Source: a virus
Virus record (IMG/VR): IMGVR_UViG_3300046791_000145
Span: 1 to 34,803 of that record
Length of the DNA stretch: 34,803 nucleotides
Strand: one strand, 5' to 3'
Shown in pieces: positions 1,319-34,803 of this stretch; within the stretch, counting starts at the first letter, position 1, and the number at the start of each line of letters is the position of its first letter. Under the pieces are notes generated by a model, which was not told where the DNA came from, did not search any database, and saw only the letters and a list, made by a program, of their open reading frames with translations. Both the position numbers and the translations under genes were made by a program.

Positions 1319-3177
<1,859 letters not shown>

Positions 3178-3178
<1 letters not shown>

Positions 3179-4068
3179 TGCGCGTCTCGGTGGTGATGAT
3201 TTGCAAGAACGAAGAGGCGGTGCTGGCCCGCTGTCTGGAGTCGGTGAAAGAAGCCGACGAGATTATCATTTGCGATACAGGCTCCACGGATCGCACCATC
3301 GAGATTGCGCAGCAGTTCACGGACAAGGTCTTCACGGATTACGTCTGGGAGGACAACTTCGCCAAGGCGCGGAACCATGCGCTCAGCAAGGCCACGGGCG
3401 ACTGGGTGCTCTCGATTGACGCCGATGAATACCTGACCTGTCCCTTCAGCGCGGTGCGCGAAGCGGTGGCGAAGGGGTTTATGGCGGTCAACGTCAAGAT
3501 GACGGCCGAATCTGGCCCGCCGTCCCACTTCTGGTTCCCCCGGCTCTTTCTGCGCTCCCCGAATGTCTGGTGGGAAGGCGCGATTCATAACCATATCTCC
3601 GTGATGGGCGAGGACGTGGGCGCGGTGACACTGACCTACGGCTATTCGCCGGCCCACACCCTGGATCCCCTGCGCTCGATGCGGATTCTGGAGAAGGAAG
3701 TGGCGGATCGGCCCGATTGCATCCGCGAGCGGTTCTATTTAGGCCGGGAATACTTCTACCGGGGCCAGTATGACCAAGCCCTGGTGATGCTCGGGCGCTA
3801 CGTCCAGCAGTCCCGGTTCCTCGCGGAGAAGGCCGAAGCCTTCCTGACGATGTCCCGGGTCTATTGGGCGCTGCACATGCCGGATGATGCGCGGGATGCG
3901 CTGGTGCAATGCCTGATCATCAATCCTCGCTTCAAGGAAGCGGTGCTGTTCATGGCGGAACTGGCAGGGGACGGGTCCAATAATCCCCGCTGGCAGAAGA
4001 ACGCGGATCAGTGGAAGCGGATGGCGGAGACGGCGGATAACGACGGCGTGCTCTTTCTGCGCACATGA
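3178..4068 (+). CDS. Family 2 glycosyltransferase with TPR-like tail
   Basis: A 296-residue protein. ATG 3178 overlaps the fibre gene's TAA (TAATG); an upstream in-frame GTG at 3148 is less likely because the GT-A fold begins at once with RVSVVMICKNEE. The N-terminal half carries GT2 hallmarks: the nucleotide-sugar segment IICDTGSTDRT at about 30-40 and the metal-binding DADE at 81-84. The C-terminal part, from about residue 185, is helical and TPR-like (the FYLGREYFYRGQYDQALVML segment), as in SunS-type and other GT2 enzymes that modify proteins. The expected reaction is sugar transfer from a nucleotide sugar to a protein or glycan. Its position, coupled to a Thr-rich collagen fibre, makes that fibre a plausible acceptor (inference). 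Confidence 0.9.
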
Positions 4069-5114
4069 ACTATCTCCTGTCGCCTCATGACGACGATTCG
4101 GCGCTCTTTGCGGCCGTGACGTGCCTACGGGAGCAGCCGACGGTGGTCGTGGTGACGGATTCCGTCGTGCAGCCGGCGCGTGGCGAGACCGGCTGTTCCG
4201 CGGAGGAACGGGCGGAAGAGACCGAGAAGGCCCATGCGGTGCTGGGTTGTCAGACGCGGCGCCTCGGCCTGCCGGACGACGGGTTGACGATGGCGGCGCT
4301 GATCGCGGCCTTCGGCACGCTGCCGGACGTGGAAACGGTGTATGCCCCGGCGCTCGAGGGCGGGCATCCCCACCATGATCTGGTCAGTCTTGCGGCGGCG
4401 GCGGTCTTCGGGACGGAGACCCTACAGTGCTATGCGACCTATCAGAAGCTCAGTCAGTATCGGGATGTCGATCTGCAGCCGGTGGGCACGACGGAAGTGG
4501 AGTGGACGCGCCCCGAGTATCAGCAGAAGCTGCAGGCGTTGATCTGTTATGAGAGCCAACTGCGGGTCAACCCGATGCACTTCCGGGCCGTCGAAGGGCG
4601 CAGCGAGTGGCTGTCTGGCTTCTCCCGGCTGCATCTCGGGTGTGGTACGCGCATCTTCCCCGGCTGGGTCAACGTGGACCGGAAAGCGCCGGCGGTGCCC
4701 AGCAGCTTCTTTACGCGCTGCGACATCGTGGCCGAACCGTTGCCGCTGGATGACGCCAGCGTCGATTATGTGTTCTCGGAGGACTTCCTCGAGCATCTGC
4801 CGCCTGAGCGTCGGGTGGCGGTGATCAACGAAGTCAACCGGGTGCTCGTGCCGGGGGGCGTCATGGAGCACTACGTGCCGAACGCCGGCAGCCGGAATGC
4901 CTACGGCTCCCCGAGTCATCTGTCCCACTGGAACGCGCAGGTCTTCGAGCATTTCGACGTGGACTCCCATCGCTGGGCGAAGGATCGGGCCTTTGAAGGC
5001 ATTCAGGGCGGTTTCAAGAAGGTCAGTGCGGATCTGCTGAACTGGCAAGTCGAAGAGGACGGCGTGAAGCGGGCGCAGTCGCTGCGGGTGCGCTATCGGA
5101 AGGTCACGTGCTGA
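4065..5114 (+). CDS. PIG-L deacetylase-methyltransferase fusion
   Basis: A 349-residue protein in ATGA overlap with the glycosyltransferase. Residues 1-180 resemble the PIG-L/LmbE family of zinc N-acetyl-sugar deacetylases: SPHDDD at 6-11 corresponds to the usual AHPDDE motif, and GGHPHHD at 99-105 to the downstream His motif. From about residue 187 a class I SAM-dependent methyltransferase follows, with LHLGCGT at 189-195 (motif I), the acidic WVNVD after strand 2, DIVAEPLPLDDASVDYVFSE, then LEHLP and VLVPGG. The two domains suggest de-N-acetylation of an amino sugar followed by N- or O-methylation, in the cytoplasm and probably on the sugar made or attached by neighbouring enzymes. Domain calls are strong; substrate is unknown. 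Confidence 0.85.
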   Translation: MNYLLSPHDDDSALFAAVTCLREQPTVVVVTDSVVQPARGETGCSAEERAEETEKAHAVLGCQTRRLGLPDDGLTMAALIAAFGTLPDVETVYAPALEGGHPHHDLVSLAAAAVFGTETLQCYATYQKLSQYRDVDLQPVGTTEVEWTRPEYQQKLQALICYESQLRVNPMHFRAVEGRSEWLSGFSRLHLGCGTRIFPGWVNVDRKAPAVPSSFFTRCDIVAEPLPLDDASVDYVFSEDFLEHLPPERRVAVINEVNRVLVPGGVMEHYVPNAGSRNAYGSPSHLSHWNAQVFEHFDVDSHRWAKDRAFEGIQGGFKKVSADLLNWQVEEDGVKRAQSLRVRYRKVTC

Positions 5115-5932: not shown

Positions 5933-7173
5933 CGTCGGTCTACCGGGAGATTGACGCCTGTCGGATGACGGGCAGCCGGGACCTTGTGTCCCTGCTGGAC
6001 CTCGGAGAGATGGCCCTGACCGGCATCTTCCCGAAGCCGGGCGTCGAGGTGCCCAGCGGGCCGGTCGAACTGGTGTTGTGTCCTGATGGCGGCTTGGTGC
6101 AGTTGCGGCAGAGTTACGCGCCTTCGCTGATGTATGGCGAGCACTACGGCTATCGGTCTGGGTTGAACGGCTCGATGGTGCGGCACTTGGCCGGCATTGC
6201 GGCCTCGCTGGAGAAGCGGTGTCCGACGCGGGCCGGCGATGTGGTGCTGGACATTGGCAGCAATGACGGCACGCTGCTCGGGTCCTATGAGAACATGGGC
6301 CAGAAGTTTCTCGGCATGGACCCGACGGCGGCGAAGTTTGGCCGGTTCTACGCGCCGCATATCCAGCCGGTGACTGAGTTCTTTTCGGCGGCTCGGTATC
6401 GTCAGATCATGGGCGACCAATCAGCGCGCATCGTGACCTCGGTCGCCATGCTCTATGACCTTGATTGCCCACTCGAGTTCATGCAGTCGGTGTCGCGCAT
6501 TCTGGCCGATGATGGCATCTGGTATACGGAACAGAGCTACCTGCCGGCCCTGCTTGACCAGTGCGCCTATGACACGATCTGCCACGAGCATCTGGAGTAT
6601 TACGGCCTGACGCAGTTGCAGTGGATGGCTGACCGCGCAGACCTGCGGATCATCGAGGCCACGCAGAATGACACCAACGGCGGATCATTAGCCGTCACGT
6701 TCGCGCATCGGCAGTCTCGGCATCGCTCAGATAGCGCCAATCTTGCGCTGCTCCTGGGCGCGGAGCGTCGTCGTGGACTGGACGAGCCTGACGGCTTCGC
6801 AGCCTTCCAATCGGCCGTGGCACGGCATCGCGTCGAACTGCCGGCGCTGATTCGCTCGCTGCGAGCGGCTGGCAAGACGGTATTCGGCTACGGCGCCTCC
6901 ACAAAGGGCAACGTCCTGCTGCAAGCCTGCGGCTTGACGGCTGATGACCTACCGTGCATCGCGGATGTCAATCCCGACAAGCATGGCTGCGTGACGCCTG
7001 GGACGCACATCCCGATTGTCTCGGAAGCGGAGGCGCATGCGCAGCAGCCGGATTACTTTCTGGTCCTGCCATGGCACTTCCGCGACTTCATCATCGAGCG
7101 CGAAGCGGCCTTCTTGGCGCGTGGCGGCAAGCTGATCTTCCCGCTGCCGACCATCGACGTGGTGGGCGCATGA
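5899..7173 (+). CDS. Sugar C-methyltransferase, TylCIII/NovU type
   Basis: A 424-residue protein. ATG 5899 is chosen over an in-frame ATG at 5842 because family homology begins near residue 15, and 5899 leaves a 34-base overlap with the preceding gene. The three-part layout of C-3/C-5 sugar methyltransferases is present: an N-terminal zinc-type domain (21-64), a Rossmann core with LDIGSNDGTL at 117-126 and ICHEHLEYYG at 227-236, and a C-terminal domain with GYGASTKGNVLLQACGL, NPDKHGCVTPGTHIPI and DYFLVLPWHFRDFI. Relatives methylate the carbon of TDP-deoxysugars. Two oddities: each CxxC pair of the zinc site keeps only its first Cys (C21/T24 and C61/G64), and the usual YHEH is CHEH. It probably makes a branched sugar for the cassette. 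Confidence 0.87.
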   Translation: MARTATLSRPVTSVYREIDACRMTGSRDLVSLLDLGEMALTGIFPKPGVEVPSGPVELVLCPDGGLVQLRQSYAPSLMYGEHYGYRSGLNGSMVRHLAGIAASLEKRCPTRAGDVVLDIGSNDGTLLGSYENMGQKFLGMDPTAAKFGRFYAPHIQPVTEFFSAARYRQIMGDQSARIVTSVAMLYDLDCPLEFMQSVSRILADDGIWYTEQSYLPALLDQCAYDTICHEHLEYYGLTQLQWMADRADLRIIEATQNDTNGGSLAVTFAHRQSRHRSDSANLALLLGAERRRGLDEPDGFAAFQSAVARHRVELPALIRSLRAAGKTVFGYGASTKGNVLLQACGLTADDLPCIADVNPDKHGCVTPGTHIPIVSEAEAHAQQPDYFLVLPWHFRDFIIEREAAFLARGGKLIFPLPTIDVVGA

Positions 7174-7775
7174 GCCTGCAGCCCGGTCAGCCCGGAAACG
7201 ACGGTTACTGGAAGAAGGGTCTAGGTCCTTGGAGCGGCAAGAAAAGGCCGCCGATGTCTCCAGAGTGGAAGGCCAAGATAGCTGCCGCTTTGGTGGGTAA
7301 ATCCGGGCGCATTCCAAGTGAAGAAACAAGAAAGAAGATGAGTCTATCCGGCCGGATGAGAGCGCCAATGTCTGACGCCACGAAGGCAAAGATGAGCGCT
7401 GCTCGGATGGGTAGATCAATGAATCTAAGCAGCGAGGCGCGCCGTCTTCGCGGCCTCAACGTAAAAGGACCAAAGCATTGGAACTGGAAGGACGGAAAGA
7501 CTCGCCTCAGCAGACAAATCAGGCAGATATTCGAATACCGTGAATGGCGCAAGGCTGTCTACGCGAGGGACAACCATACCTGTTTGAAGTGCGGAATCAC
7601 AGGCGCGGATCTACATGCCGATCACATTTATCCATTCGCTAAAATATTAGATGAATGCAGGGTCACCTCAATCGAGGCGGCTCTCCAATGTGATCGGCTA
7701 TGGGATGTTCGAAACGGAAGAACGCTTTGTGTGCCGTGTCACCGCATGACTGAGACATATGCTAAACCCGCGTAA
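7170..7775 (+). CDS. NUMOD3/HNH homing-type endonuclease
   Basis: A 201-residue protein starting at ATG 7170 in ATGA overlap with the methyltransferase; upstream in-frame starts lie inside that gene. Residues 25-85 carry repeated NUMOD3-like DNA-binding motifs (SPEWKAKIAAALVG, SEETRKKMSLSG, SDATKAKMSAARMG). The C-terminal HNH domain has C138/C141, HADH at 149-152, N182 in NGRTL, and C187/C190-H191. Such free-standing enzymes cut DNA site-specifically and spread by copying themselves into cut alleles. The gene is visibly richer in A/T and uses AAA, AGA, ATA and TTA codons that neighbours avoid, consistent with recent transfer. It interrupts an otherwise continuous sugar cassette and overlaps the next gene by 17 bases. 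Confidence 0.9.
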   Translation: MSLQPGQPGNDGYWKKGLGPWSGKKRPPMSPEWKAKIAAALVGKSGRIPSEETRKKMSLSGRMRAPMSDATKAKMSAARMGRSMNLSSEARRLRGLNVKGPKHWNWKDGKTRLSRQIRQIFEYREWRKAVYARDNHTCLKCGITGADLHADHIYPFAKILDECRVTSIEAALQCDRLWDVRNGRTLCVPCHRMTETYAKPA

Positions 7776-18945: not shown

Positions 18946-19145
18946 TCCCGCAAATTGAATGGACGATTTCCCTCGGCACGATTCTGCAACTGGTCGTGGT
19001 GATTACGGGGTTTATCAAGATTTACAACGCGGTCGAGCGGCGGTTGAGCGGCTTGGAACTGAAGATGGATCAGGTGTGGCAGTGGTTCACGGATCATATG
19101 GCGCGGGAGCCGATGGCGCGGACGCGGCGGAATGACCACCGATGA
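18942..19145 (+). CDS. Single-helix membrane protein, lysis-region
   Basis: A 67-residue protein in ATGA overlap with both neighbours. One transmembrane helix (about 7-25, with ISLGTILQLVVVITGF) is followed by an amphipathic, coiled-coil-like segment (YNAVERRLSGLELKMDQVWQWF) and a basic tail. This layout is common for small phage membrane proteins directly upstream of an endolysin, including holin-like and spanin-like proteins. With two stronger holin candidates at 22177-22634, this one is better called lysis-accessory. No specific family is recognised. Confidence 0.7.
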   Translation: MIPQIEWTISLGTILQLVVVITGFIKIYNAVERRLSGLELKMDQVWQWFTDHMAREPMARTRRNDHR

Positions 19146-19528
19146 TTACGCGGTTTAAGGCGGGCGTGACGATTGAGCCGACGGCGGTGACAGCGCGACT
19201 GCTTGGGGCGGTGGATCGGGTGGCGATGAATAGCTCCTTCGACATCACGGTGACGAGCGGGTCGGACAGCCATCCGTTGCATGATGTCCATACCCGCGGG
19301 CTGGCGCTGGATCTGCGGTCGCATGATCTGGATGATGTCGAGAAGGCCGACATGATGCGGGCGATTCTCTGGGAGCTCGCAGACGAAGCGCCGGAAGACG
19401 TGAGTGCCAGGAACAGTGCATGGCTGGCGCTCGAGACGGATGAATGGTTCATTCAGTTGGAACATCACGGCGATCTGACCGAACACGTGCATCTGCAGCG
19501 GCGTCAAGGGGCGCTGCCCTTTGATTAA
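19142..19528 (+). CDS. M15-like peptidase, probable endolysin
   Basis: A 128-residue protein starting at ATG 19142 (ATGA overlap). It carries the zinc site of M15/LAS-type D-Ala-D-Ala peptidases: VHTRGLALDLRSHD supplies H50 and D57 in the S/V-H-x-x-G-x-A-x-D pattern, and DLTEHVHLQ supplies H115/H117. Phage members of this fold cut peptidoglycan crosslinks or stem peptides at lysis. There is no signal peptide or wall-binding domain, so export would need a holin; two candidates lie downstream at 22177-22634. The protein is at the short end for an endolysin but complete. An L-alanyl-D-glutamate or D-Ala-D-Ala specificity cannot be decided from sequence. Confidence 0.8.
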   Translation: MITRFKAGVTIEPTAVTARLLGAVDRVAMNSSFDITVTSGSDSHPLHDVHTRGLALDLRSHDLDDVEKADMMRAILWELADEAPEDVSARNSAWLALETDEWFIQLEHHGDLTEHVHLQRRQGALPFD

Positions 19529-30646: not shown

Positions 30647-31054
30647 GTGTCTAAGCACGCCCCCCGCGGACCCGTGAAGGTGCATTCAGACCCTATGGAC
30701 GGCACAAACCCCATAGATGCCCCATTTACGCCCTGCACGGCGCATAGCCGATCCGGCAACCGGTGCAAGCGTCGGCCCATCCCTGGTGGTGCTGTCTGCT
30801 ATATGCACGGCGGGGCCGCCCCGCAGGTGCAAGCCTCCGCGAAAGAGCGTCTGATGGCCCTGCAACCCTTAGCGATTCAGACCTTAGCGAAGCTCTTAGC
30901 GCGGGATGAGTTCCCAACGGTGCAACTGGGGGCGAGCAAGGACGTGCTGGACCGCACGGACGGCAAAGCCTTTGAGCAGCCCCAGGAACTGAATATCACC
31001 ATCAACATCGTGGACGTCCTGAAGCAGCGCCATGCTCGACGCCTCACGGCTTAG
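30647..31054 (+). CDS. Terminase small subunit candidate
   Basis: A 135-residue protein from GTG 30647. A zinc-type segment C30TAHSRSGNRC40KRRPIPGGAVC51YMHGG is characteristic of a small protein family often found just before the large terminase, with the HGG-x-x-P ending. The C-terminal half is helical (KERLMALQPLAIQTLAKLLA; VQLGASKDVLDRTDGKAFE) and ends in basic residues. It overlaps the large terminase by 23 bases. In tailed phages the small subunit recognises the packaging site. The role is inferred from position and this zinc pattern; an HNH-like or regulatory role is possible. Confidence 0.7.
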   Translation: MSKHAPRGPVKVHSDPMDGTNPIDAPFTPCTAHSRSGNRCKRRPIPGGAVCYMHGGAAPQVQASAKERLMALQPLAIQTLAKLLARDEFPTVQLGASKDVLDRTDGKAFEQPQELNITINIVDVLKQRHARRLTA

Positions 31055-32525
31055 CCCCACCGACGAACTGGCCTTAGCCGAGTGGGCGAGAGACTGCGCC
31101 GAAGACCCCCTCCGCTTCGTGCTGGAAGCCTACCCGTGGGGCGAGCCTGGCCCCCTGAGCCAGCATGACGGCCCGGATACGTGGCAGCGGGCGTTCCTTG
31201 AGGACCTTGGCAAAGAAGTCCGGACCAGAGCCTTTGACGGGGTCACTCCGGTGCAGCCCATCCGGCGGGCGGTCTCGAGCGGTCACGGCATCGGCAAGTC
31301 CGTGATGGTGGCGTGGCTGGTCGATTGGATCATGTCTACCCGCCCCTACTGCAAGGGCACCATCACGGCCAACACCTTTACCCAACTCGAGACGAAGACC
31401 TGGGCCACGGTGCAGCACTGGACGGGCCTGTGCATTACGGCGCCGTGGTTTGCGGTGGTGGCGAACCGGATGTATCACCGGCAGTATCCCAAAAGCTGGT
31501 TCTGCGCCCCGCAGTCCTGCCGGGAAGAGAACAGCGAAGCCTTCGCCGGCCAGCATGCCGCGGATAGCACCAGCTTTTACATCAACGACGAAGATTCAGC
31601 CGTGCCGGATAAGATCCACGAGGTCAGCGAAGGCGGATTGACGGACGGGGAGCCGATGCAGTTCCTGTTCGGCAACCCGACCAGGACTACGGGCGCCTTC
31701 CATGCGGCGTGCTTCGGGGTGCAACGCTCACGGTATGTCGTGACCGTGGTCGATAGCCGTGAATCCCGGTTTACCAACAAGACGCAGATTGCGGAATGGG
31801 CGCAGGATTATGGCGAAGGGAGTGATTTCTTTCGCGTTCGTGTGCTCGGTCTGCCGCCGGCAGCTTCGGATCTGCAGTTCATTGATACCGCCACGGTTGC
31901 CGCCGCTCAGGCCCGGCAAGTGCTCGCTTTGCCAGATGAGCCGCTCCTCGCGGGTCTTGACTTGGCTCGTGGAGGATCCGATGAGTGCGTCATCCGATTT
32001 CGTCGGGGACCGGATGCTCGCAGCATTCCGCCGATCCGTGTGCCAGGGGCGCAGGCTCGAGACTCCATGAAGATGGTCACGCTGGCCGCCGATGTCCTGA
32101 CGCGGGACTACTCAGGCCAGAAGGTGGCGAAGCTCTTTGTGGATGCGACAGGCGGCAGTATCGGCGGCCCGATTGCGGACCGGCTGCGGCAGTTGGGCTA
32201 TGACAACGTGATTGATGTGCAGTTCGGCGGGGAGAGCCCTGACCCGAAGCTGGCGAACATGCGGGCGTATATGTGGTCCAAACTGCGCGACTGGTTGCCG
32301 CGGGGCGCGATTGACAGCACGTCGGCCCTCGAGATGGACCTGACCGGCCCAGGGTATACCCATGACAAGCAGGATCGGGTGCTCTTGGAGTCGAAAGAGA
32401 ACATGAAGAAGCGCGGCGTGGACAGCCCCGATGACGGGGACGCGCTGGCCCTGACATTCGCGCAGCCGGTGCGGGTCAATGTGCCGATGCCGGCGCCCTA
32501 TAAACCTCGCGTCGGGTGGACGTAG
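31032..32525 (+). CDS. terL: Terminase large subunit
   Basis: A 497-residue protein. Its N-terminal ATPase has Walker A SSGHGIGKS at 82-90, an adenine-type motif upstream (WQRAFLEDLG), Walker B region SFYINDEDSAVPD with D186/E187, and coupling motif FLFGNPTRTTGAF at 211-223. The C-terminal RNase H-like nuclease has LAGLDLARGGSDE with D310, a middle acidic strand (VAKLFVDATGGSIGGPI) and the final DDGDALALTFA. All motifs of the packaging motor are in place. TerL pumps DNA into the prohead and cuts concatemers. Its 23-base overlap with the small subunit implies coupled translation. Confidence 0.94.
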   Translation: MLDASRLSPTDELALAEWARDCAEDPLRFVLEAYPWGEPGPLSQHDGPDTWQRAFLEDLGKEVRTRAFDGVTPVQPIRRAVSSGHGIGKSVMVAWLVDWIMSTRPYCKGTITANTFTQLETKTWATVQHWTGLCITAPWFAVVANRMYHRQYPKSWFCAPQSCREENSEAFAGQHAADSTSFYINDEDSAVPDKIHEVSEGGLTDGEPMQFLFGNPTRTTGAFHAACFGVQRSRYVVTVVDSRESRFTNKTQIAEWAQDYGEGSDFFRVRVLGLPPAASDLQFIDTATVAAAQARQVLALPDEPLLAGLDLARGGSDECVIRFRRGPDARSIPPIRVPGAQARDSMKMVTLAADVLTRDYSGQKVAKLFVDATGGSIGGPIADRLRQLGYDNVIDVQFGGESPDPKLANMRAYMWSKLRDWLPRGAIDSTSALEMDLTGPGYTHDKQDRVLLESKENMKKRGVDSPDDGDALALTFAQPVRVNVPMPAPYKPRVGWT

Positions 32526-32537
32526 AATGAGGCCACT

Positions 32538-33155
32538 ATGGGCATCTTAGAGCAGGCGCTGGCGTGGCTGAACGGGCCGAAGGTGCAGCCGTCAGGGATT
32601 GACCGGCGGCGCTTCCTGCAGTTCCTTGGCGGGACTGCGGTGGGTGCGGCGGTCGCTCCGCTGATCGACGTGGAGCATCTGCTGTGGACGCCCAAGCCGA
32701 TGATTGTGGTGCCTGGTGCTGACACGTGGCTCTCGATTGACTGGATTACGCGAGAAGCGCTCATGATGTTTGAGAATCGCCTCGGCGTGGCTCGCCTCTT
32801 TAATCGTGATTGGGACATCGCGAATGGGCAAATAGGGCAGAGTGTCAGCGTGCAGCATCGGCCCGTGGTGCTTGACCATCAATACGGCGTGAGCATGGAT
32901 GTCCTGCGTCGGCCGGTCGATCCTGCCGAATTCCGGCGGACGTTCCTTCGGTCAGCCGTCGATGCTCTGGTTGAGAAGATGCCTAAGCAGGTCGTCTGTG
33001 GAGAATTGGCTATTCCGGCCAATATGGGCGGCTCACGAGCCACAAAGGCCGGCGGTGGTCCCTCGCTACGTGGCATTCAAACTGGCTACTTAGATCCGAC
33101 AAGCGGCGAGGTAGTTGAATTGTTACGGCTCGATGTGTTGGCTGGCGCGGTGTAG
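32538..33155 (+). CDS. Tat-signal protein with coat-like segment
   Basis: A 205-residue protein from ATG 32538 with ATGAGG about eight bases upstream. Residues 23-42 (RRRFLQFLGGTAVGAAVAPL) have a twin-arginine signal: the R-R-x-F-L-x-F motif followed by a weakly hydrophobic, Ala/Gly-rich core. From about residue 67, SIDWITREALMMFENRLGVA then RLFNRDWDIANGQIG and VSVQHRPVV resemble the first part of P22/BppU-type coat proteins (ITREAL...NRDYD...IGDTIxIRxP), but the rest of the coat is missing. A true Tat signal on a virion protein would be odd; a lipoprotein-like or displaced paralogue is possible. The likeness to coat is by eye only. Confidence 0.6.
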   Translation: MGILEQALAWLNGPKVQPSGIDRRRFLQFLGGTAVGAAVAPLIDVEHLLWTPKPMIVVPGADTWLSIDWITREALMMFENRLGVARLFNRDWDIANGQIGQSVSVQHRPVVLDHQYGVSMDVLRRPVDPAEFRRTFLRSAVDALVEKMPKQVVCGELAIPANMGGSRATKAGGGPSLRGIQTGYLDPTSGEVVELLRLDVLAGAV

Positions 33156-33494: not shown

Positions 33495-33767
33495 ATGCCC
33501 GCCAAGTCCCGAGCGCAGCAACGACTCATGCAAGCCGCGGAGCACGGCGCCACGTTCCCGATGGCTGAGAAGATCCGGGCCTCGATGACCCACGACCAGA
33601 TGCATGATTTCGCCGTCGGCTCCGAGAAGGGCAAGCCAGAGCACGTCAAGAAGGCCCGTGCCGCCAAGCCCGCGGCCGATCCAAACCACGAATCCTACGC
33701 CTACGACTGGCGGGCGCAGCAGCATCCCCACCGGAATCTGGGCAAGTTCCTGCACAAAGCGAAGTAA
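33495..33767 (+). CDS. DUF3008-like small protein
   Basis: A 90-residue protein from ATG 33495. The N-terminus PAKSRAQQRLMQAA followed by FPMAEKIRASMTHDQMHDFAVGS matches the DUF3008 pattern (PAKSxAQQRLM...A), frequently seen in phage structural neighbourhoods. The C-terminus is basic with NLGKFLHKAK. No biochemical role is known for the family. It is coupled to the next gene by TAATG. Confidence 0.75.
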   Translation: MPAKSRAQQRLMQAAEHGATFPMAEKIRASMTHDQMHDFAVGSEKGKPEHVKKARAAKPAADPNHESYAYDWRAQQHPHRNLGKFLHKAK

Positions 33768-33976
33768 TGGGGCGTGCTGCTCGAGGGAATCCGCGCAGTC
33801 CTGACGGGGGGAAGCATCCGCGTGGGCTCTTTCAGGCGCGGTTCATCCGGTTTGCCGATCACTTCCGCACCCGCACCGACTTCGATGCCTATGTTGTCCA
33901 CGCCAACGTGACGGAGCAAGAGCGCCGGCTGCTCGAGCAGTTGCTGCCCGAACGCCTGCGGGTCACGGAGTCCTAA
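33767..33976 (+). CDS. Small basic hypothetical protein
   Basis: A 69-residue protein from ATG 33767 (TAATG overlap). A basic, Gly-rich N-terminus (GRAARGNPRSPDGGKHPRGL) precedes a helix-rich half (RFADHFRTRTDFDAYVVHAN; TEQERRLLEQLLPERLRV). It resembles small head-morphogenesis accessories between terminase and portal. It shares a base with the portal start codon. Family unknown. Confidence 0.62.
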   Translation: MGRAARGNPRSPDGGKHPRGLFQARFIRFADHFRTRTDFDAYVVHANVTEQERRLLEQLLPERLRVTES

Positions 33977-34803
33977 TGGCTGAGAATCCCGGCCGCCCCT
34001 TGCCGGCGCGTCAATCCAGTGACTCCGCAGCCGATGATGCCCTGCTCGTGGAACTCCGCGAGCGGTATACCTACGCCCTTGACCAATGGAAGCCGATCCG
34101 CGATGCCGCAAAGGAAGATATGCGGGTCGTGGGCGGGGATCCGTGGGCGCCGAAGGACCGCAGAGCCCGTGAGGATGCCGGCCGGGTCTGCCTGTCCCTG
34201 GACGAGCTGCATCAATACTTCAATCAACTGATCAATGAGGTCCGTGCCAATCCCCGGGCGCCGAAGTTTGACCCGACAGGCAACGGGGCGAACGCGCAGA
34301 CCGCCGAGTTCTACCAAGGCAAGATGCGGGAGATTGAGTATCGCTCGCAGGCGCAGATTGCCTATACCACGGCCTTTCAGAACGCCGTGCATCAGTCTTA
34401 CGGCTGGCTGCGGTTCAACACGAAGTATCAGCCCAAGGGCTTCGTGCAGGACTTGTGGATTGACAGCATCGAGAACCCAGACCTCGTGCTGTCGGACCCT
34501 GATGCCTTGCGGCCGTCGTCCAGCGATCAGACCTACCTGTTCTATCTGCAGTCGCGGAGCATCAAGGAGTTTCGCCGGGAGTTCCCCAATGCTCAAGTGA
34601 CCAACTTCACGCCCGAAGTGGTGAGCCAGGCGCCGGCTTGGATTACCCCGGAGCGCGTCCAGGTGGCGGAATACTGGGTGGTCGAGCCGGTCACGAAGGA
34701 ACTCGTCCTGCTGCAACTGCCAGACGGTCGGACGCAGGGCTTCTACACCGACGAACTCGAGCAGATGCCGACGAACGGCGCGAAGGTCGTGGACCGCCGG
34801 CAG
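33976..34803 (+). CDS. P22-like portal protein, 3'-truncated
   Basis: A reading frame from ATG 33976 (TAATG) open to the window end, 276 residues visible. P22-type portal features include LRERYTYALDQWKPIRDAAK, DLWIDSIENPDLVLSDPDAL and the early QLINEVRANPRAPKF region, followed by EVVSQAPAWITPERVQVAEY. P22 portal is about 725 residues, so this is probably the first third or more. The protein forms the dodecameric ring through which terminase pumps DNA. The rest, and probably scaffold and coat, lie beyond the window. Confidence 0.85.
   Translation, partial: MAENPGRPLPARQSSDSAADDALLVELRERYTYALDQWKPIRDAAKEDMRVVGGDPWAPKDRRAREDAGRVCLSLDELHQYFNQLINEVRANPRAPKFDPTGNGANAQTAEFYQGKMREIEYRSQAQIAYTTAFQNAVHQSYGWLRFNTKYQPKGFVQDLWIDSIENPDLVLSDPDALRPSSSDQTYLFYLQSRSIKEFRREFPNAQVTNFTPEVVSQAPAWITPERVQVAEYWVVEPVTKELVLLQLPDGRTQGFYTDELEQMPTNGAKVVDRRQ

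Follow-up and report, generated by a model that had tools for sequence, protein, structure and literature searches.

A phage accessory gene that joins a predicted Tat-type leader to parts of a P22-type coat protein

Introduction

The coat proteins of tailed phages are usually regarded as shell bricks, and the Tat pathway, which exports folded domains, usually carries cofactor enzymes. Encapsulins keep the complete HK97 fold, including the A-domain, and form shells. They are a case in which an HK97-type shell protein is used outside a virus (PMC8346489). In the P22 coat, the N-arm (residues 2–30) binds scaffold and is followed by an F-loop (34–50) and an E-loop (51–78), the P-domain comprises residues 31–33, 79–127, and 358–416, the A-domain comprises residues 128–221, 346–357, and 417–430, and the I-domain spans residues 222–345 (PMC9965877). 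Assembly-blocking proteins occur in prophages, an example being Tab, which is encoded by a Pseudomonas prophage and blocks the assembly of tails (PMC10884400), and capsid-sensing immunity exists in the form of CapRel, which senses a major capsid protein (PMC9712102).

Here we describe a phage gene whose product compares with each of these systems in part. It shares N-arm/loop and C-terminal P-domain sequence with P22-type coats (PF11651, PHROG 283) but is half as long, lacks the A-domain and I-domain, and has an additional Tat-like leader of 60 residues; moreover, the gene and its one diverged homologue, L003, are accessory, lying between the terminase and portal genes or elsewhere, and the L003 phage encodes a full coat in addition. 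Like Tat substrates (TIGR01409), the protein has an RRxFL motif and an uncharged core and passes the NCBI model, but here the signal precedes a phage coat module and a good cleavage site is absent. Unlike encapsulins, it shows no A-domain region in alignments. Among the matches listed in searches of 5.39 million open-access papers (titles and the beginnings of abstracts, with subscription papers and preprints outside their scope), none concerned Tat-exported coat fragments. If our reading is true, recurring export-tagged coat domains would put the HK97-type coat to a new use, raising the question of whether these domains act against other phages at the envelope of the cell or serve some other purpose. 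The case also carries a warning that a small ORF matching 'major head protein' need not be a capsid gene.

Results and discussion

A one-gene insert after the terminase gene

The window analyzed here, 34,803 bases, is IMG/VR record IMGVR_UViG_3300046791_000145 taken entire; it is possibly a genome fragment, and its 3′ end falls within a P22-type portal gene (33976–34803, plus strand; PF16510, E 3e-54), which is truncated at the record end. Upstream on the same strand lie the gene for the terminase large subunit (TerL; 31032–32525; PHROG 2) and then the ORF of interest (32538–33155), a genuine gene encoding 205 residues, with an ATG start and a GAGG (32529–32532, plus strand), the likely ribosome-binding site, five bases 5′ of that start.

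A sequence-only reading of this DNA had called the position between terminase and portal unusual, and comparison with relatives bears this out. Of the 15 contigs (L018 to L032) that have both genes assembled and a TerL 92% or more identical, all 15 lack the gene between TerL and portal, and in all 11 relatives that were aligned the site is empty, with the TerL stop codon followed immediately by the next conserved gene. In the window, the inserted stretch runs from 32526 to 33153 (plus strand), after which the conserved sequence begins with aggtgtatactgcc. By these alignments, the gene is a one-gene insert after TerL and is accessory (moron-like) in character.

Two further ORFs were seen in this region. 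A 90-residue ORF at 33495–33767 of the window, between TerL and portal, has a sub-threshold DUF3008 match and is almost identical in several close relatives. A different ORF, of 132 residues (L018:3967–4365), occupies a longer TerL–portal interval in L018, the closest relative after L002 (TerL 99% identical), and the interval thus looks like a site of changing cargo.

A diverged homologue at another location

Scanning 2.9 million viral contigs turned up two relatives of the gene: L002, a separate record identical to the window, and L003, which encodes a protein of 222 residues that is 55% identical to the window protein. Close-relative scans with the window or L003 protein, or with the two aligned, returned L002 and L003 only. 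TerL of the L003 phage is 98% identical to that of the window. Its copy of the gene lies at a different location, on the strand opposite to the surrounding ORFs, and homology to the window restarts no more than 5 bases past the stop codon. The same phage encodes a full coat at L008:10056–11300.

Other searches gave no further copy. The WTPTK segment, searched as a degenerate DNA pattern, matched the L003 contig only, the plasmid collection gave no match, and none of 42 pattern matches from a first genome scan was confirmed. A two-sequence profile (window plus L003) matched 39 places in 38 of 50 related whole records; none of these spans the first 47 leader residues, so a further copy of the gene was not seen in those 50 records. 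One of the 39 places, G050 19055–19267, was inspected and rejected. Leader-rich queries added only weak matches to other proteins (E 2 to 8), one of which, in MW202477.1, lies within a 4.6-kb hypothetical gene and was dropped.

A Tat-type leader under purifying selection

The leader (residues 1–60; 32538–32717, plus strand) contains D-R-R-R-F-L-Q-F, with the twin-arginine motif R23-R-R-F-L27 at 32604–32618 (plus strand), and then an Ala/Gly core without charge that reaches residue 43. The sequence-only reading had taken R-R-R-F-L-Q-F and the Ala/Gly-rich core for a Tat-type signal. In agreement, residues 21–40 pass NCBIfam model TIGR01409 (TAT_signal_seq) with 20.1 bits against a cut-off of 16.7, and the L003 leader passes with 18.6 bits; the window protein (16.6 bits) and L003 (17.8 bits) both fall below the cut-off of 22.7 for Pfam TAT_signal. 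Export or membrane anchoring is predicted from this Tat-type leader. A-V-A at residues 38–40 is followed directly by proline, and a proline at this place hinders cleavage.

Over their first 52 residues, the window and L003 leaders are 90% identical with 21 synonymous codon differences, giving dN 0.088, dS 1.07, and dN/dS of about 0.08. The bodies are 43–44% identical with silent sites saturated or close to saturation, and changes at third codon positions outnumber those at first and second positions (64 versus 43 and 35; 37 versus 24 and 13). Constraint within the protein is thus strongest on the leader, which is under purifying selection, as expected if the signal works.

The body is homologous to parts of a P22-type coat

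The window copy by itself resembles coat only faintly: residues 68–114 match PHROG 283, a major head protein family, at E 0.055, PF11651 gave no match at E ≤ 1, and tblastn against a collection of 50,697 phage records gave none. The relationship emerged through L003, and several comparisons support it. First, L003 matches PHROG 283, a family without a curated cut-off, at E 5e-4, and scores 11 bits against PF11651, below the cut-off of 24. Second, tblastn with L003 matched 30 of the 50,697 phage records (best E 4e-9), of which 23 carry a coat, capsid, or head protein annotation and 7 are labeled hypothetical, and in all five of the matched records that were opened the matched stretch was the beginning of the coat gene. 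Third, we scored both proteins with a coat HMM whose 33 member coats came from database phages and related loci (four of four tested exceed the PF11651 cut-off). These coats were chosen among ORFs of 380–470 residues matched by a mini-coat profile, a choice that favors an N-terminal match; the PHROG and tblastn matches of L003 are independent of it. L003 scored 57.9 bits (positions 5–81 and 343–391), compared to 27.6 bits for the window copy (positions 2–51). Fourth, the L003 C-terminus matched the coat C-terminus with 20.2 bits, a value reached by 0 of 10,000 shuffles; the corresponding match of the window copy, taken singly, is weak, being equaled in 37 of 10,000 shuffles, and the coat segment in its C-terminus was recognized only via alignment with L003. 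Finally, hhalign aligned the two-sequence profile with coat at E 7e-7. In sequence terms, the coat likeness is homology, established through L003, and with L003 included it begins near residue 61 and, apart from a single internal gap, continues to the C-terminus. The likeness to P22 coat that had been noticed at residues 67–110 is therefore real, but that span was too short, and the C-terminal coat segment had been overlooked.

Residues 61–149 (32718–32984, plus strand; PHROG match and alignments) correspond to the N-terminal part of the coat, comprising N-arm, a shortened loop region, and a spine-helix segment. Residues 152–203 (GELAIPA..RLDVLAG; 32991–33146, plus strand) correspond to the C-terminal P-domain part, an assignment that is firm in L003 and weak in the window copy alone. 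In the window/L003 alignments, nothing corresponds to coat positions from about 118 to 342 or to the last strand. When HMM position 101 is equated with residue 100 of P22 gp5 and position 391 with about residue 412 (limits that are approximate, the N-arm part coming from hhalign alone), the body appears to keep the regions matching N-arm, loops, and P-domain and to lack the A- and I-domain regions. Thus, the earlier description of the protein as a coat relative is supported by sequence, but the relative is not whole, and the absence of the A- and I-domain regions makes an ordinary shell subunit unlikely. AlphaFold reached a pLDDT of 32 for L003 from two-sequence input and of 55 when coat rows accompanied the window protein, and fold searches found nothing at E ≤ 0.001. 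For the window model, the best Foldseek values were E 0.08 in the PDB and E 0.04 in a viral library, where the one capsid protein, at rank 34, had values at the level of noise (E 0.30, TM 0.17); the VIA list was headed by unrelated proteins (best Z 6.2, a lipoprotein).

Comparison of the L003 body with 37 coats, 32 of which matched, placed a coat of another lineage first (60.5 bits) and the coat of its own phage 28th (22.3 bits). This ranking speaks against the body having been copied recently from the coat of the same phage or standing in for that coat. With the window body, 31 coats matched and that of the L003 phage came 7th, so a foreign origin is less clear for the window copy.

These results bear on whether the protein could be an accessory structural component of the carrier's head, for example at the portal vertex, with the leader acting as a hydrophobic contact segment instead of a Tat signal. 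The location of the window copy between TerL and portal and the retention of the N-arm segment would suit such a role, but we judge it quite improbable: all 15 close relatives compared lack the gene at this site, the L003 copy lies elsewhere on the other strand, the leader passes a Tat model, and the L003 body is unlike the coat of the same phage.

Tat-like leaders joined to other coat modules

The I-domain is joined to Tat-like leaders in ORFs of L052, L092, L128, L130, and L041. Those of L052 and L092 lie between TerL and portal and match the coat HMM with 80.7 bits (positions 239–325) and 61.5 bits (positions 245–319), respectively, and that of L041, upstream of TerL, has an I-domain start (9.6 bits; 0 of 3000 shuffles as good). 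The L128 (37.8 bits) and L130 (52.2 bits) proteins came from scans with L052 and L092 and so are not independent of that design; the L130 phage also has a full coat of its own. With TIGR01409, L041 (18.2 bits) exceeds the cut-off of 16.7, L092 (15.0 bits), L128 (15.4 bits), and L130 (14.3 bits) fall below it, and L052 gives no match. Likeness to the window leader is clear for L128 and L092 (0 of 2000 shuffles as good for each), lower for L130 (3 of 2000), and hardly seen for L052 (11 of 2000), L041 (54 of 2000), and L033 (417 of 2000); the common Tat motif alone may explain part of it.

Across 101 contig pieces with 11,219 ORFs, 8 ORFs are Tat-like, 9 have coat pieces, and 5 have both (Fisher p 5e-15, to be read with the caveat that the Tat motif was sharpened after the first examples). 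Because the window and L003 genes are homologous, four of the five are independent. This count leaves out L002, repeat views of contigs, database phages L012–L017, and 48 ORFs that are true coats or contig-edge pieces (L061 among them); L128 and L130 also stand outside it. Among non-coat ORFs, coat HMM scores of at least 9 bits were obtained for 9 real, 0 reversed, and 0 shuffled sequences, and a limit of 8 bits gave 10, 1, and 1. Tat-like ORFs without a passing coat piece occur in L033, L058, and L071, and an ORF of L104, with 8.5 bits to the coat model, lies under the 9-bit limit.

Small ORFs of related phages also carry coat pieces without a Tat leader (L096 twice, L076, and L046). The two in L096 (7904–8203 and 8407–8601; 17.7 and 14.3 bits) lie between TerL and portal and have the coat C-terminal motif GIxIRxxxxxx. 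In L076:7508–7729, L046:3164–3421, L033:13794–14021, and L104:2114–2326, a coat loop/N-arm segment stands at the end or start of an otherwise unrelated ORF, that of L046 being close to the decoy level of the segment model. Segment model C1 at 10 bits matched 7 reversed decoys and 2 real ORFs, and the segment A model exceeds decoys only from 12 bits upward, so these models alone are no evidence. Coat likeness seen by eye was not counted for L042, L058, the Tat ORF of L033, or a second ORF of L076, whose scores with their best model were 1.8 to 4.3 bits (20, 1, 12, and 48 of 3000 shuffles as good, respectively).

In L128:2318–3672, small overlapping ORFs encode, in order, a weak coat N-arm piece (9.6 bits, segment model), a piece of the coat C-terminus (16.6 bits, rising to 25.6 bits under the segment model), and the Tat-plus-I-domain protein. 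A long ORF ahead of these resembles terminase by eye only, and the window TerL has no match in the L128 locus. The order N, C, I differs from what a broken coat gene would give, which weighs against the view that the window gene is what remains of a duplicated or foreign coat gene that has lost internal parts and is decaying. The missing coat middle, the low similarity, and the presence of pieces in several related phages would fit decay, but the ORF and leader are intact in two diverged phages, the leader has a low dN/dS, and body changes are commoner at third than at first and second positions. We give decay the lowest probability of any reading considered here.

The L092 protein matched 36 entries of the phage collection, 35 of them coat, capsid, or head proteins and one a terminase small subunit; among six loci from the L092 search, one was L092's own contig and four (L131–L134) were true coats. 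A second genome scan, with the coat alignment and one pattern only, gave 13 loci in cellular genomes with related coats, where no ORF under 330 residues had a coat piece of at least 8 bits; the sole Tat-like match there was on the minus strand and without coat. From this small sample, the combination of Tat leader and coat piece looks limited to the present phage group. We consider the chances evenly balanced that these proteins make up a new class of Tat-targeted fusions of excised coat domains, the P-domain here and the insertion domain elsewhere, in which capsid modules are re-used at or across the inner membrane.

A possible membrane-anchored coat mimic

Our preferred explanation, held tentatively and with slightly less than even confidence, is that this accessory gene encodes a non-assembling coat mimic, anchored in the inner membrane by its Tat leader, that hinders capsid assembly by competing phages. 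The coat-derived body would fold independently in the cytoplasm, the leader would take it to the inner membrane, and the protein would remain anchored and uncleaved, because A-V-A has proline next. In a less confident step, the mimic would disturb the capsid assembly of competitors and would not build the carrier's capsid, since the L003 body is nearer to the coats of other lineages than to its own. Tab offers a parallel: it too is a phage-encoded accessory protein acting on the assembly of others, an action only proposed here, but it blocks tails (PMC10884400). Taken alone, interference with foreign coats is the function we favor, at well under even odds. A Tat substrate ends on the periplasmic side, where no coat or scaffold of other phages assembles, so localization and mimicry fit poorly, and the Tat-plus-I-domain relatives lack the scaffold-binding N-arm, so a single interference mechanism fails to cover all cases.

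The main rival to interference is a new role at the envelope, in which a coat P- or I-domain has been captured as a stable fold and re-used in the periplasm or membrane with no capsid-related partner, perhaps for superinfection exclusion, lysis control, or envelope binding. Three points favor such capture: Tat exports folded domains, P-domain and I-domain types both occur with similar leaders, and the leader is the best conserved part. Nevertheless, we think it unlikely, given the coat pieces without a Tat leader in four small ORFs, which make coat sequence as such seem the useful feature. Alternatively, the protein might be a decoy against a host defense protein that senses capsid protein, as CapRel does. 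Capsid-sensing immunity is established (PMC9712102), and the coat modules vary between phages, as an arms race would predict, but a decoy would be expected to mirror the carrier's coat, which the L003 body does not, and a Tat leader would remove the protein from cytosolic sensors. We regard a decoy function as very improbable and retain the membrane-anchored mimic as our working explanation.

Other genes in these phages

Elsewhere in the window (3148–5114), PHROG matches indicate a tail fibre gene followed by a glycosyltransferase-like ORF and then a methyltransferase-like ORF. In database phage L016 (MW202674.1), the coat gene (5986–7501) is annotated as two pieces about 220 bases apart that jointly span the whole coat model, and it is possibly interrupted or intron-containing.
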